Positions 719-8,270 of a DNA stretch of 20,571 nucleotides are shown here, piece after piece; positions within the stretch are counted from its first letter, which is position 1, and each line of letters begins with the position of its first letter. Origin of the DNA: a virus; IMG/VR virus record IMGVR_UViG_3300012920_000361, positions 1 through 20,571 of that record, one strand, 5' to 3'. A model generated the notes under the pieces. It worked only from the letters and a program-made list of their open reading frames with translations. It did not search any database and was not told where the DNA came from. The translations under genes were made by a program, and so were the position numbers.

Positions 719-2222
719 CATACCAGGACTAAAACTCGACTTTAGTAAATCGCCTACTGTATGGAAGTTCCTTAATGACAACTCTTTTGTTAGAGGCATG
801 ATTGGTCCTGTCGGTAGTGGCAAGTCGTATGCCTGCTGTGCCGAGATATTTAAAAGAGCTGTCCAACAAAAACCAAGTAAGAGAGATGGTATCAAGTATT
901 CTCGATTTGTTATTGTAAGAAACTCGTATCCCATGTTAAAAACTACGACACTCAAAACGTGGCTTGAATTATTTCCAGAGCATATCTATGGACCTGTTCG
1001 CAACTCACCACCGATAACACATCACATAAAATTACCGAGTCGAGAAGGAGCAGCAGGGATTGACCTAGAAGTAATTTTTCTTGCACTAGATCAACCTAAA
1101 GACGTCCGTAAGTTATTATCTCTTGAAGTTACAGGAGGATGGATCAATGAAGCAAGGGAACTACCGAAATCAATAGTCGATGGTCTAACTCATAGGGTAG
1201 GACGATATCCTGTGAAGGATGATGGTGGTCCGACATGGCGAGGAGTTATTCTAGATACTAACCCATGCGATGATGATCATTGGATATATAGATTATCCGA
1301 GAAAGAACCACCGAAAGGAAAGTTTGCGTGGAAATTTTTTCGACAACCGCCTGGAGTATTCGAGGCGAAGGAAGTGCCAGAAGAAATGCCAGAGGCTCAA
1401 GGCTTTGTACATTCCGCAGGTAAATGGTGGCAGACGAATGATAAGGCTGAGAATCTCAATAATCTACCTGTCGGATATTACGAACAACTTCTGGGTGGTA
1501 AGAACCTAGATTGGATACGTTGTTATGCCGAGGGTAAGTTTACTTATGTTCAAGAAGGCAAGCCTGTATGGAGTGAGTATGACGATGCGAGTATGGTCGA
1601 TGATTGTCAGATACTAGACGGAGTACCAATACAGATCGGACTTGACTTTGGATTAACACCTGCCGCTGTGTTTGCGCAGAGAACTCCGAAGGGTGTATGG
1701 AATGTATTACATGAGCTTGTTACTTTCGATATGGGATTAGAAAGATTTTGCACATTGCTGAAAGAGGATATCGATAGATTCTTTCCGAAGCATGAGTTAC
1801 AGATATGGGGAGATCCGGCAGGTATGCAACGTGACCAGATATTCGAGAATACAAGTTTTGAACATCTTAAAACTCATGGACTCTTTGCCAAACCTACTGC
1901 CACTAATGATTTTAGAACTAGACGAGAAGCGTTAGCAATGCCGATGACGAGGTTAGTTGAGAATAAGCCTGGCTTCAGAATAGATCGTAAATGTGTTCGC
2001 TTGAGAAAATCGCTAAGTGGGGGATATCATTTCAAGAGGGTAGCTATTGGGGCAGGGCAAGAAAGATTTAGGGATACACCGAACAAGAATGAGCATTCGC
2101 ATATTGGAGATGCCGCAGGATATTGTCTGCTTGGAGGCGGAGAGCATAGACGAATGACTAAGGGTAATAGACCGCACCTCAAACCAATGGTCGCTAAAAT
2201 AGATTTTGATCCGTTACAATAG
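708..2222 (+). CDS. terL: Terminase large subunit (TerL), packaging ATPase and nuclease
   Basis: 504 residues, normal length for a podovirus TerL. It powers DNA translocation into the prohead and cuts the concatemer. Visible ATPase parts are Walker A GPVGSGKS (33-40), a hydrophobic strand VIFLALD (about 124-130) and GGWINEARE, whose Glu148 is the likely catalytic acid. The RNase H-like nuclease domain shows three well-placed acids: Asp313 in GLDFG, Asp369 in WGDPAG and Asp468 in HIGDAAGY. No active-site residue appears missing. A weak AGGA lies 7 nt before the ATG, and the gene overlaps TerS by 11 nt. Its last eight residues (KIDFDPLQ) are encoded within a 24-bp repeat copied again 251 bp downstream, at the end of the next small gene. 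Confidence 0.95.
   Translation: MTTNIPGLKLDFSKSPTVWKFLNDNSFVRGMIGPVGSGKSYACCAEIFKRAVQQKPSKRDGIKYSRFVIVRNSYPMLKTTTLKTWLELFPEHIYGPVRNSPPITHHIKLPSREGAAGIDLEVIFLALDQPKDVRKLLSLEVTGGWINEARELPKSIVDGLTHRVGRYPVKDDGGPTWRGVILDTNPCDDDHWIYRLSEKEPPKGKFAWKFFRQPPGVFEAKEVPEEMPEAQGFVHSAGKWWQTNDKAENLNNLPVGYYEQLLGGKNLDWIRCYAEGKFTYVQEGKPVWSEYDDASMVDDCQILDGVPIQIGLDFGLTPAAVFAQRTPKGVWNVLHELVTFDMGLERFCTLLKEDIDRFFPKHELQIWGDPAGMQRDQIFENTSFEHLKTHGLFAKPTATNDFRTRREALAMPMTRLVENKPGFRIDRKCVRLRKSLSGGYHFKRVAIGAGQERFRDTPNKNEHSHIGDAAGYCLLGGGEHRRMTKGNRPHLKPMVAKIDFDPLQ
2197..2220 (+). repeat. 24-bp direct repeat, copy 1 (terL 3' end)
   Basis: This copy encodes the terminase C-terminal tail and its last base is the first base of the TAG stop. 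It matches 2448-2471 at all 24 bases, and both flanks then diverge. Such a long exact match at two gene ends is far beyond chance and marks a duplication or insertion. Confidence 0.9.
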
Positions 2223-2233
2223 AAAGGGAAGGG

Positions 2234-2473
2234 ATGAAAAAACATATTCATGTAAATCAGCATAAGATTCGTGCTAATAAAAAGCATGGAACTAATGATC
2301 CTGTTATTACAGTTAAAGAAGGAAAAAAAAACACTTATTGTCATAATGTAAAAATATTAGGACCTTCTAAAATTTTCTATGGGGGCAACAATAAACCTAT
2401 ATTATCATGTGGTGCAAGAGTTGTAATTGAGACCGAGAGTGATATAGAAATAGATTTTGATCCGTTACAATGA
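2234..2473 (+). CDS. Small KHIHVNQH-type phage protein with a terminase-derived C-terminus
   Basis: 79 residues; ATG preceded by GGGAAGGG. The sequence runs KKHIHVNQHKIRANKK, then PVITVKEGKKNTYCHNVKILGPSKI and SCGARVVIETES. I recognise this pattern from memory as a widespread small phage family of unknown function, probably a compact beta fold. The oddity is the end: after IETESDIE it finishes IDFDPLQ, identical to the end of the large terminase, and the DNA matches over 24 bp. The gene seems to have been inserted at the terL 3' end, capturing or regenerating the terL tail. The stop overlaps the next start (ATGATG). Codons 30-32 contain a run of nine A (2323-2331). No function is assigned. 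Confidence 0.8.
   Translation: MKKHIHVNQHKIRANKKHGTNDPVITVKEGKKNTYCHNVKILGPSKIFYGGNNKPILSCGARVVIETESDIEIDFDPLQ
2448..2471 (+). repeat. 24-bp direct repeat, copy 2 (3' end of the small inserted gene)
   Basis: Exact copy of 2197-2220, read in the same frame so that it encodes the same terminal residues. In this copy the final T belongs to a TGA stop overlapping the next gene's ATG. This is the stop-start style used elsewhere in the window, so copy 2 may be the ancestral terL end and copy 1 the rebuilt one. That polarity is inference. Confidence 0.9.
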
Positions 2474-2685
2474 TGTATTTGTTTGTCGAATCTATTGCCA
2501 CACTAACCGCTATAATTTCTATTTATCTTTATGGCAATGGTTGGAAGTATTCTGGATACTTTGGTTTGTTCTCGCAATTTTGGTGGATACTATTTACTTA
2601 CATCAATGACCATAAGACTCTTTACTTTCTCTGCCTCTGTATGTGCATTACCCATATACGCAACATAAGGAAAATGAATAAATGA
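2470..2685 (+). CDS. Small membrane protein, PnuC-like fold fragment
   Basis: 71 residues (69-70 if the second ATG at 2473 is used). There are two hydrophobic stretches: residues about 2-22 (YLFVESIATLTAIISIYLYG) and about 30-45 (GYFGLFSQFWWILF). A third, Cys-rich hydrophobic segment (YFLCLCMCI) follows, then a basic end (RNIRKMNK). The pattern of a GN motif, a W, then GLxSQxxWI resembles small phage membrane proteins related to part of the PnuC vitamin-transporter fold, from memory. A holin cannot be excluded, but no lysis gene lies nearby. The start overlaps the upstream stop (ATGATG) and the stop overlaps the next start (ATGA), so it sits in a coupled chain. Confidence 0.7.
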   Translation: MMYLFVESIATLTAIISIYLYGNGWKYSGYFGLFSQFWWILFTYINDHKTLYFLCLCMCITHIRNIRKMNK

Positions 2686-3188
2686 CATTTACTTGCGAAG
2701 AACTAAACCAGGCAACAAATCTGGATGGGGTTGATTATAAATTTATTCCGTTTCATTATACGCATCTCAAGATGATGGAGTTCCGAGAGTCCGAACATTC
2801 TCTCATGAATAGCTTTGTAGATTACGAAGAGAAAATAAAAACGTGTCCGATGGAGGGATTATCATTTAGTGGTGTATGCTTTGGAGATATTGTGTGTTGT
2901 TTTGGTATACTCCCTTTGTGGGAAGGAGTGTATGAGGCTTGGCTACTACCATGTAAACATTTAACCAAAAATAAATTTAAGTTTCATAGAGCAAGTCTAA
3001 AGTTTTTTGAATACGTTGCAAAACGCTTAAATATTCATAGATTGCAGATAAATGTTAGTAGTCAGAATTGCCTAGCATACAAATGGGCTAAAAAGTGTTA
3101 CTTTACTGAGGAAGGATTGTTACGAAAGTTCGGTCCAGATAAAACTGACTTTTATATTATGAGTCGATTGTTTAATGATAAGGAGTAG
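2682..3188 (+). CDS. GNAT acetyltransferase-like protein, gp13-like
   Basis: 168 residues. The layout resembles a GNAT fold. The N-terminal part (FIPFHYTHLKMMEFRESE) is followed by central strands (GLSFSGVCFGDIVCCFGILPLWEGVYEAWLLP), then a helix with FHRASLKFFEYVAKRLNIHRLQINV and NCLAYKWAKKCYFTEEGLLRKFG. That last part matches the usual GNAT end, where a partner is placed by a helix before the final strand. T7-like phages encode a similar protein (internal virion protein A, gp13), normally next to the tail genes; here it lies between terminase and portal. The acetyl-CoA pyrophosphate loop (Q/RxxGxG/A) is not evident, so enzyme activity is doubtful. It is rich in Cys. Start overlaps the upstream stop (ATGA). 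Confidence 0.75.
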   Translation: MTFTCEELNQATNLDGVDYKFIPFHYTHLKMMEFRESEHSLMNSFVDYEEKIKTCPMEGLSFSGVCFGDIVCCFGILPLWEGVYEAWLLPCKHLTKNKFKFHRASLKFFEYVAKRLNIHRLQINVSSQNCLAYKWAKKCYFTEEGLLRKFGPDKTDFYIMSRLFNDKE

Positions 3189-4155: not shown

Positions 4156-4304
4156 TGACTATTACAAAAAAACAAAACAAAACATTAAATAAACACAAAG
4201 TTCATCATACTAAAAAACACATGCGGACTATGAGACTACTTATGAAAAAGGGAATGTCGTTTACTAAAGCTCACAATAAAGCTATGAAAGAGGTAGGTAA
4301 ATAA
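4155..4304 (+). CDS. Very small basic protein (49 aa)
   Basis: AGGAGG lies just upstream at 4144-4149, and the ATG overlaps the previous stop. The protein runs from MTITKKQNKTLNK through HHTKKHMRTMRLLMKKGMSF to AHNKAMKEVGK. The HH(S/T)KKHM...LMKKGxSFxxAHxxAMKxVGK pattern is one I recall from small phage proteins near the portal. It is probably helical and very Lys-rich. Its stop overlaps the portal start (TAATG), so it may set portal translation. Too short for most length cut-offs. Function unknown. Confidence 0.7.
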   Translation: MTITKKQNKTLNKHKVHHTKKHMRTMRLLMKKGMSFTKAHNKAMKEVGK

Positions 4305-5854
4305 TGGCAAAGCTAAGTGCGGAACAACTAAAAAGAAAATACGATTTAAGTAATAGTCATAAGGATAATTGGAGATCAATTTACGAAGACGCATACAGGT
4401 ATGCCCTGCCCATGAGGAATCTCTACGATGGGTACTACGAATCCAATACACCAGGTCAAGATAAGATGGCGAGAGTGTTTGACTCTACTGCTATAGATAG
4501 TACGCAAAAATTTGCGAATAAATTACAGAGTGGATTATTTCCACCTGCTAGTCAGTGGTGTCGTCTAGTGCCTGGCTCTGAGATACCAAAAGAAATGAAA
4601 ATAGAAACGCAACAGATTTTAGATAGCTATAACAACAGAATGTTCGATGTTATGCGACAATCTAATTTTGACCAGGCTATGGGCGAATTTCTTCTTGAAC
4701 TTGCCATAGGCAGTGCGATCATGCTGATCCAACCTGGAGACGAAGTGACTCCGATTCGTTACACTGCTGTACCGACATTCTTAGTCACCTTTGAGGAAGG
4801 TCCATTCGGCACTGTCGATAAAGTATATCGTAGGATGAAAAAACCTTACGGAGTATTAGATCAAGAATTTCCAGATGTAAAAATACCACAGGATATGAAG
4901 AACAGTTATCAAGGTCGAGAAAACGAGATGGTTGAGTTGATCGAGGGTACTTACTACGACAAGGATACCGGTAAATATCATTATCAGATTGTTGATTATA
5001 ATGGTAAGCATGAACTTGTTTATAGAGAGTTAAAATCATTTCCTTGGGTGGTAGCACGTTACATGAAAGCTGCTAACGAAAGGTATGGTCGAGGACCTGT
5101 ACTTACTGCCTTGCCAGATATTAAAACATTGAACAGGGTGTTAGAACTTACACTTAAAAATGCTTCACTAACTATTGCAGGAGTCTACACCGCAGTAGAT
5201 TCTGGAGTGTTGAATCCTGGAGCAATAAACCTAGTTCCTGGTGCGATCATACCGGTCAACTCTAATGGAGGTCCTAGAGGAGCTGACTTACAGCCATTAC
5301 CAAGAAGTGGTGATCCTCAGTTATCTCAGATTGTGGCGAATGACTTACGGATGAATATTAAGAAAATTATGTTAGACGAATCTTTGCCACCAGATACTAT
5401 GTCAGCTCGAACTGCACTTGAAGTTGCCGAGAGGATGAAACAGCTATCGCAAAATTTAGGCGCCGCTTTTGGTCGATTGATTAATGAGACTATGTACCCT
5501 GTGGTAAGGAGAACTCTCGAAGTTATGGATCAACTCGGTATTATTCAATTACCACTGAAGGTGAACGGACTACAAGTTAAGGTACAGCCGATTGGTGAAC
5601 TTGCTATGGCGACCAATATGACGAAAGTAAATCAAGTAATGCAATACGCACAGATAGCTAGTTCGTTAGGACCAACAGGTCAGATGACTATTAAGGTAGA
5701 GCAGCTAGCCGACTACATAGCCGATGCGATGGGAATCCCTGCGGATATTAGAACTACTTACGAAGAGAGAATGCAGATGCAACAAGTTATGGCGGAGCAA
5801 GCTCAGATGATGGCTCAGCAGCAACAAGCTCCACCGCCACAAGAGGAGCAATAA
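4304..5854 (+). CDS. Portal (head-tail connector) protein, T7 gp8-like
   Basis: 516 residues, the usual size of the podovirus head-tail connector family. The start (AEQLKRKYDLSNSHKDNWRSIYEDAYRYALP) followed by RVFDSTAIDSTQKFANKLQSGLFPPASQWCRL is diagnostic: a helical clip/wing opening, then the conserved D-S/T-A-xx-A-xxx-LxSxLFPP stretch. The dodecameric ring sits at one head vertex, lets DNA in and holds the tail. The LNPGAINLVPGAIIPVN to SGDPQLSQIV part is typical of the crown/stem side. The C-terminus is a Gln/Met-rich, low-complexity tail (about 487-516). Start overlaps the 49-aa gene; stop overlaps the next tiny frame. Confidence 0.93.
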   Translation: MAKLSAEQLKRKYDLSNSHKDNWRSIYEDAYRYALPMRNLYDGYYESNTPGQDKMARVFDSTAIDSTQKFANKLQSGLFPPASQWCRLVPGSEIPKEMKIETQQILDSYNNRMFDVMRQSNFDQAMGEFLLELAIGSAIMLIQPGDEVTPIRYTAVPTFLVTFEEGPFGTVDKVYRRMKKPYGVLDQEFPDVKIPQDMKNSYQGRENEMVELIEGTYYDKDTGKYHYQIVDYNGKHELVYRELKSFPWVVARYMKAANERYGRGPVLTALPDIKTLNRVLELTLKNASLTIAGVYTAVDSGVLNPGAINLVPGAIIPVNSNGGPRGADLQPLPRSGDPQLSQIVANDLRMNIKKIMLDESLPPDTMSARTALEVAERMKQLSQNLGAAFGRLINETMYPVVRRTLEVMDQLGIIQLPLKVNGLQVKVQPIGELAMATNMTKVNQVMQYAQIASSLGPTGQMTIKVEQLADYIADAMGIPADIRTTYEERMQMQQVMAEQAQMMAQQQQAPPPQEEQ

Positions 5855-7415: not shown

Positions 7416-8270
7416 ATGAGTACAGGACTATCAACTGCATTTATCACTCTCTTTGAGGCTGAAGTAAAACAAGCCTACCAGGGTGAAGCAGTACTAAGAA
7501 ATGCTGTACGAATGAGAACTAATGTTAATGGTTCAACTGTAAAATTCCCAACTATCGGGAAAGGTGTATCTCAAGTTAGAACACCACAAACAGACGTTGT
7601 TCCGTTAAACACTTCATTCGGATCAGTGACAGCGACTATGACAGATTTCATAGCTGCTGAATATAGCGATATTTTCGACCAAGCAAAAGTGAACTTTGAT
7701 GAGAGACAAGAATTAGCTCAAGTCGTAGGTAAGGCTATTGCCAGGAGAGAAGATCAAATAATAATCGATGTAATGGAAGCAGCTACTCCAGGCACCACGA
7801 TTGCCAATACGGTCGTGACTTCGGGCTCAGCGGGGGCTTCAGATTTGAATATTGGAAAAATCATTGCAGCTAAAAAAGCTCTTGATGCAGCCAATGTTCC
7901 TCCAACAGATCGTCATGCAGTTATTCATGCGAATAACCTTGCAGGTCTTCTTGGTGATGAAAGAGCAATTAGCGGTGACTTCCAAAACATCAAAGCACTT
8001 GTCGCAGGTGAGCTTAACACTATGATGGGTTTTCAATTTCACATTGTTGGTGATAGAGACGAAGGCGGCTTAAACAAGGACGGCAGTAATGACAGAAAAA
8101 CTTTTTTCTTTCATAAGTCATCTACAGGCTGTGGTGTATCAGTAGCACCTAAGGTTGAGGTAAACTACATACCTGAGAAAACGTCCTTCTTGGTAAGTGC
8201 CATGTATAGTGCAGGAGCTGCGATTATTGATACGGCAGGTCTAGTTCAAGTAACTTGTAGAGAGTCTTAG
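7416..8270 (+). CDS. Major capsid protein, T7 gp10-like (HK97-type fold)
   Basis: 284 residues; AAGGAG (7405-7410) lies 5 nt before the ATG. It has the typical podovirus capsid order: an N-terminal helix (FEAEVKQAYQGEAVLRNAVRMRT), then GSTVKFPTIGKGVSQVRTPQTDVVP and FIAAEYSDIFDQAKVNFDERQELAQVVGKAIARREDQIIIDVM. These are the N-arm, E-loop and spine-helix features. A-domain strands follow, with HAVIHANNLAGLLGD and MMGFQFHIVGD, and the end is KVEVNYIPEKTSFLVSAMYSAGAAIIDTAGLVQV. It forms the icosahedral shell. Somewhat shorter than T7 gp10A. Expression is likely high: own promoter, structured leader, good ribosome site and a terminator after the next gene. Confidence 0.93.
   Translation: MSTGLSTAFITLFEAEVKQAYQGEAVLRNAVRMRTNVNGSTVKFPTIGKGVSQVRTPQTDVVPLNTSFGSVTATMTDFIAAEYSDIFDQAKVNFDERQELAQVVGKAIARREDQIIIDVMEAATPGTTIANTVVTSGSAGASDLNIGKIIAAKKALDAANVPPTDRHAVIHANNLAGLLGDERAISGDFQNIKALVAGELNTMMGFQFHIVGDRDEGGLNKDGSNDRKTFFFHKSSTGCGVSVAPKVEVNYIPEKTSFLVSAMYSAGAAIIDTAGLVQVTCRES

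Follow-up and report, generated by a model that had tools for sequence, protein, structure and literature searches.

It is quite likely that a small gene of the KHIHVNQH family was inserted at the junction between the large terminase subunit gene (terL) and a membrane-protein gene of this phage, and that its tail was copied from the terL end through a crossover at short homology. The case is an ordinary but instructive, polarised example of known phage gene shuffling, with no new mobile element.

Phage Record and Gene Order

The stretch of DNA analyzed (the window) is a linear viral record of 20,571 bases, whose packaging and structural genes are those of a podovirus-like phage. No match for the whole window was found in the phage collection by megablast. 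The nearest annotated phages by TerL were Methylophilales phage MEP301 (65% identity), followed by Pelagibacter phage Hodr (46%), and a marine host of this kind is therefore likely. The terL relatives in IMG/VR were 69–100% identical. A literature search on MEP301 and phrog_8676 returned nothing. An SSB-like protein is encoded at 30–329, in the position of the ssDNA-binding protein of MEP301, and its C-terminus, FDDNVPF, resembles the acidic SSB tip. No YqaJ exonuclease was found in five related records. The features of the window considered here are the following.

329–718: terminase small subunit
708–2222, + strand: terL, large terminase subunit of 504 aa, ending AKIDFDPLQ, stop TAG (phrog_2, E = 1.6e-23)
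2197–2220, + strand: left copy of the 24-bp direct repeat, the 3′ end of terL; upstream context ancestral
2221–2233, + strand: leader AGAAAGGGAAGGG, which finishes the TAG stop and continues as a ribosome-binding-type purine tract
2234–2473, + strand: small accessory gene of 79 aa, KHIHVNQH family, ending SDIEIDFDPLQ, stop TGA (phrog_8676, E = 2.4e-22)
2448–2455, + strand: inferred crossover microhomology AAATAGAT, encoding I-D, which is also present in several close relatives
2448–2471, + strand: right copy of the 24-bp direct repeat; ancestral on its downstream side, where ATGATG opens the next gene
2470–2685, + strand: gene for a 71-aa membrane-type protein, phrog_2421-like, directly after terL in empty-site relatives
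2682–3188, + strand: GNAT-type acetyltransferase-like gene (phrog_4177/phrog_4470), whose upstream border is a second accessory slot
4304–5854: head-tail connector
7416–8270: capsid protein

A 24-bp Repeat of the terL End

The sequence AAATAGATTTTGATCCGTTACAAT occurred exactly at 2197–2220 and 2448–2471, 251 bp apart from start to start, and each copy ran into the first base of a stop codon, in the same frame in terL and in the small gene. TerL and the 79-aa protein both end in IDFDPLQ, and the exact copies agree with the in-frame repeat described in the initial annotation. The 251-bp unit mentioned there holds as the repeat period, but not as the insert, of which the non-repeated part is 227 bp (2221–2447). 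The next gene starts with an ATG at 2470 that overlaps the TGA stop of the small gene, and the GC content of the insert was 0.313 compared with 0.428 in terL.

The next longest exact direct repeat with copies ≤2 kb apart anywhere in the window was 13 bp. When the window was regenerated 200 times with an order-2 Markov model, the longest repeat averaged 13.0 bp and was never >18 bp, and chance was excluded by these controls. A structured RNA or tRNA attachment site was also rejected, as the window had no Rfam or tRNA hit. Only inverted repeats of chance size, none >12 bp, were present around the insert, and the 227 bp held only the 79-aa gene, with no transposase or recombinase. The earlier remark that no recombinase is present was accurate for the window; a sister record of contig L052 (L190:6171–6875) nevertheless encodes a small serine recombinase of 235 aa (Pfam Resolvase, phrog_95/phrog_125), which nothing links to the site of the 24-bp repeat.

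Empty Site and Direction of Change

Searches of IMG/VR with TerL and the membrane protein revealed 20 related contigs with an empty site, in which terL runs straight into the membrane-protein gene. Five of these (L044, L045, L047–L049) had a TerL 99–100% identical to that of the window, contained the 24-mer once, and read ...CCGTTACAATGATG at the junction, where the stop of terL overlaps the start of the gene that follows. The DNA of the window and of these five relatives was 93–97% identical on either side of the slot, and the insert was unmatched. More diverged relatives, with the tails CCGTTAGC and CCATTGAA, were likewise empty, and the empty state is therefore ancestral and that of the window derived. 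The ancestral locus was thus terL-ATGATG-membrane gene with a single terL end, to which the 251-bp insertion was a later addition, found in a single genome only. TerL relatives without the tail were excluded, the end motif being conserved in 80 sequences.

These contigs bear out the proposal that a small accessory gene was inserted between terL and the membrane gene, that TerL was left intact, and that the second repeat copy still shows the ancestral ATGA overlap with the following gene. The reverse direction, in which the insert-bearing form is ancestral and lost the insert by deletion between the copies to give the empty-site phages, is extremely unlikely. Recombination of the two 24-bp copies does give exactly the empty arrangement, in silico with TerL reading to KIDFDPLQ and its stop, and such a direction could not be excluded for the mycobacteriophages Island3 and Brujita (Pope et al., 2011; PMC3029335). 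However, the empty site spans several TerL lineages, some with different tail DNA (CCGTTAGC, CCATTGAA), and many parallel deletions would be needed.

The Small Gene and the KHIHVNQH Family

The small gene matched phrog_8676 at profile positions 6–80 of 91 (E = 2.4e-22). This family, annotated as of unknown function, is very large, with at least 600 rows in a profile search of IMG/VR, and is carried by 26 annotated phage records. It is strongly conserved at residues 3–67, with a C-terminal end that varies in length and sequence. In the protein of the window, residues 1–72 form the native body, and the IDFDPLQ tail matches the C-terminus of TerL. None of the 118 family loci with a readable end finished in DFD or carried the tail of the upstream gene, and no match to upstream sequence among them was >13 bp (control maximum 12). 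The phage records with a family gene, examined separately, likewise had no copy of an upstream tail. A tail native to the family was excluded by these 118 relatives; the right-hand tail copy is terL sequence of this phage clade. Both checks proposed in the initial annotation thus came out in favor of an insertion, namely the empty site in related contigs and the missing tail in family members elsewhere. The suggestion that the small gene carried or regenerated its tail in the manner of an integrative element is not supported, given the same count and the lack of an upstream tail in the other inserts of these slots.

The AF2 model of the small protein (mean pLDDT 90.6) predicted a compact alpha/beta domain with disordered last residues, which makes the tail an appendage. 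A structure search gave no meaningful PDB match for the small protein, and PADLOC gave no hit for its gene.

In the filamentous cyanobacteria Moorena and Symploca, the KHIHVNQH domain was fused behind an HTH_17 DNA-binding domain (L213–L287, e.g., L228, L230, and L213), and many copies occurred per genome, with >10 loci on one contig of Moorena bouillonii. These fusions and copy numbers suggest a DNA-related role for the family. In Ochrobactrum phage ORM_20 (L199:1434–2249), the domain was the C-terminal part of a 271-aa protein without a Pfam match. A promoter-like repeat of 24–25 bp (TTGACATCACAT...) followed the KHIHVNQH gene in L017 (2627, 4272) and L021 (11, 1623), where another copy lies ∼1.6 kb upstream and the two frame a module.

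Right Junction

The closest relatives of the small gene encoded proteins ending in ..ESEIKIDNIQES (L288, L289), ..ESDLKIDNKDY (L291), and ..ESDIEIIK (L290), and others ended in ..IDHEPTI or ..IDGKHY. The native ..ID.. end of L289, L291, L001, L011, and L021 is encoded by AT(A/T)GAT. Since the closest relatives end similarly, the ..ESDIEID of the window, encoded by GAAATAGAT, appears native up to the I or the I-D. The counterpart in terL at the shared site is AAAATAGATTTTGATCC, and the AAATAGAT common to both is the likely crossover point of the right junction. The small gene itself probably contributed about 6–8 bp of the right copy (AAATAGAT), a length estimated from relatives just 76–81% identical at the DNA level, and the remaining 16–18 bp would be terL-derived. 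The fusion is in frame because ATA GAT encodes I-D in both genes.

Left Junction and Accessory Slots

The left junction, TAGAAAGGGAAG, was common to the window and a sister phage (L046). In L046, a 276-aa PAPS-reductase-like gene (phrog_424, E = 2.8e-47) stands between terL-CAATAGAAAGGGAAGTTATG and the membrane gene, without a copy of the tail. The window reads CAATAGAAAGGGAAGGGATG at this point, and AGAAAGGGAAG is common to the two alleles. As two different genes share one leader, the leader seems to be older than one or both of them, and the slot to have been re-used. The leader was not seen before other relatives of the small gene or of the PAPS-reductase-like gene. Pattern scans for this left junction or the fused tail in a second phage, and searches for a donor of AGAAAGGGAAG, gave nothing useful beyond L046, and no donor phage was found either.

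Because L046 holds a different gene at the shared left junction, the terL/membrane-gene junction is a recurrent slot for accessory genes. A PAPS-reductase-like gene also lay behind terL in L064, L176, and L151, with different and overlapping junctions. The gene recurred in this position with gene-exact junctions (L046:6320–7147, L151, L064:1958–2797, and L176:2501–3328); it also matched the PADLOC SspD model (E = 1.5e-22), and in Dunaliella viridis virus SI2 a PAPS reductase adjoins a terL homologue on the opposite strand. The second slot, upstream of the GNAT gene, held MT-A70 or other genes in relatives; a gene for an MT-A70 methyltransferase separates the membrane gene from the GNAT gene at L053:6673–7230, L055:6724–7257, and L056:2159–2692. 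None of the PAPS-reductase-like and MT-A70 inserts repeated the tail of an upstream gene. In this operon, the gene junctions are accessory-gene slots in which tail copying is the exception, and nothing supports the general, minimal moron-insertion mechanism that had been envisaged.

The junctions also bear on two other origins of the repeat. Filling-in of a staggered break at the terL end around an incoming 227-bp fragment, giving a 24-bp target-site duplication, is unlikely. Perfect and equal flanking copies and an empty site with one copy are what it would produce, but inverted repeats >12 bp were absent around the insert, which lacks a transposase or recombinase, and L046 has the same left junction before a different gene, with no copy of the tail. 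Moreover, the native end of the small gene plausibly supplies part of the right copy, and family members elsewhere carry no copy of the upstream tail. A sequencing or assembly chimera (e.g., through template switching in amplification) joining a KHIHVNQH fragment to terL is very improbable. The left leader was present in the independent contig L046, both flanks fit this phage, and terL and the small ORF are both intact and in frame, against which stand the single record and a short junction homology like that of amplification chimeras. Assemblers normally do not join on 8 bp.

Proposed Mechanism

Insertion with tail copying at short homology would proceed by recombination or template switching at the ∼6–8 bp (AAATAGAT) common to the native 3′ end of the small gene and the 3′ end of terL. 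Copying would have returned to the terL template slightly upstream of its departure point, so that the last 16–18 bp of terL were used again, together with the ATGA overlap and the gene that follows. The small protein would in this way gain an in-frame IDFDPLQ tail and TerL would stay whole, a single crossover or template switch sufficing for the right junction. The left junction (CAATAGAAAGGGAAG) would be part of an older slot leader common to the sister phage with the PAPS-reductase-like gene, and for this reason the insertion probably took place as an allele swap or as a capture, between phage genomes, at an accessory slot that already existed. A tail copied in passing, during a single crossover at a few matching bases, fits better than one that the insert carried or regenerated, and on the small protein the copy is most likely passive. 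The two copies may now permit exact deletion back to the empty site.

Comparison With Known Systems

The architecture has been published before: gene 68 of mycobacteriophage Island3 encodes 85 residues, of which the last 18 (∼50–60 bp) repeat the end of the upstream gene 67, whereas Brujita lacks gene 68 and has this end only once (Pope et al., 2011; PMC3029335). These authors proposed recombination at the repeat and left insertion versus deletion undecided (PMC3029335). Both cases have a small gene directly after another whose 3′ end it repeats in frame, and close relatives with one copy and no gene (here L044, L045, L047–L049 and 15 further contigs). In contrast to Island3, the window has a repeat of 24 bp (7 aa) and terL as the upstream gene, its small gene comes from a large known family whose native tails can serve for comparison, and numerous relatives show the change to be an insertion, so that its direction is now resolved.

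As with phage morons (PMC3029335), the gene lies between two genes that are adjacent in relatives, its GC content is below that of terL, and the same slot holds different genes in relatives. Unlike morons, it has no flanking promoter or terminator above chance level, with one promoter-like match (2.2 expected) and no terminator-like site in 2100–2600, and it sits inside the packaging operon, where its stop overlaps the start of the gene that follows. Relaxed homologous recombination by Rad52-like phage recombinases, which acts on sequences that are short or have diverged, is a general route for such exchange (De Paepe et al., 2014; PMC3945230). The homology here is just ∼6–8 bp, however, nearer to illegitimate recombination, and no Rad52-like recombinase was identified in the present record, which is incomplete. 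Integrative elements that restore a gene end likewise leave the target gene intact with the end sequence at both borders, but the present insert has no integrase, its cargo gene is joined in frame to the copied end, and other family members reuse no such end (0 of 118 loci). Transposon insertion with target-site duplication differs in its terminal inverted repeats and transposase, both absent here.

The Conserved TerL End

The 45 distinct TerL C-termini of the clade had a hypervariable linker followed by a conserved A-K-x-D-F-D-(V/P)-(F/L). The positions of A-K-x-D-F-D other than x were 78–100% conserved, with D at 96%, F at 100%, and D at 93%. The conserved DFD (window 2197–2222; TerL of L044–L129) is a candidate docking peptide. 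If the small protein had kept the motif to bind a partner of the TerL tail, such as the portal or procapsid, IDFDPLQ could be a working docking tag by which the accessory protein is drawn to the packaging motor or portal, or competes there. The piece that was copied spans exactly the conserved end motif and is predicted to be disordered. This function is nonetheless highly doubtful, since there is one case and a simpler explanation: the microhomology and the keeping of the next gene's start account for the boundaries, the motif is in no other family member, and the role of the TerL tail is itself putative.

Implications

The conserved DFD motif at the TerL end of this clade deserves a functional test. 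The locus is a clean example of a gene border in the packaging module that gained a gene with neither neighbor broken. Because relatives polarise the change, the family shows the native end, and a sister allele shares the left junction, short-homology recombination near overlapping stop and start codons is supported as a route to single-gene mosaicism, a route that had been described from one unpolarised pair only (Pope et al., 2011; PMC3029335).
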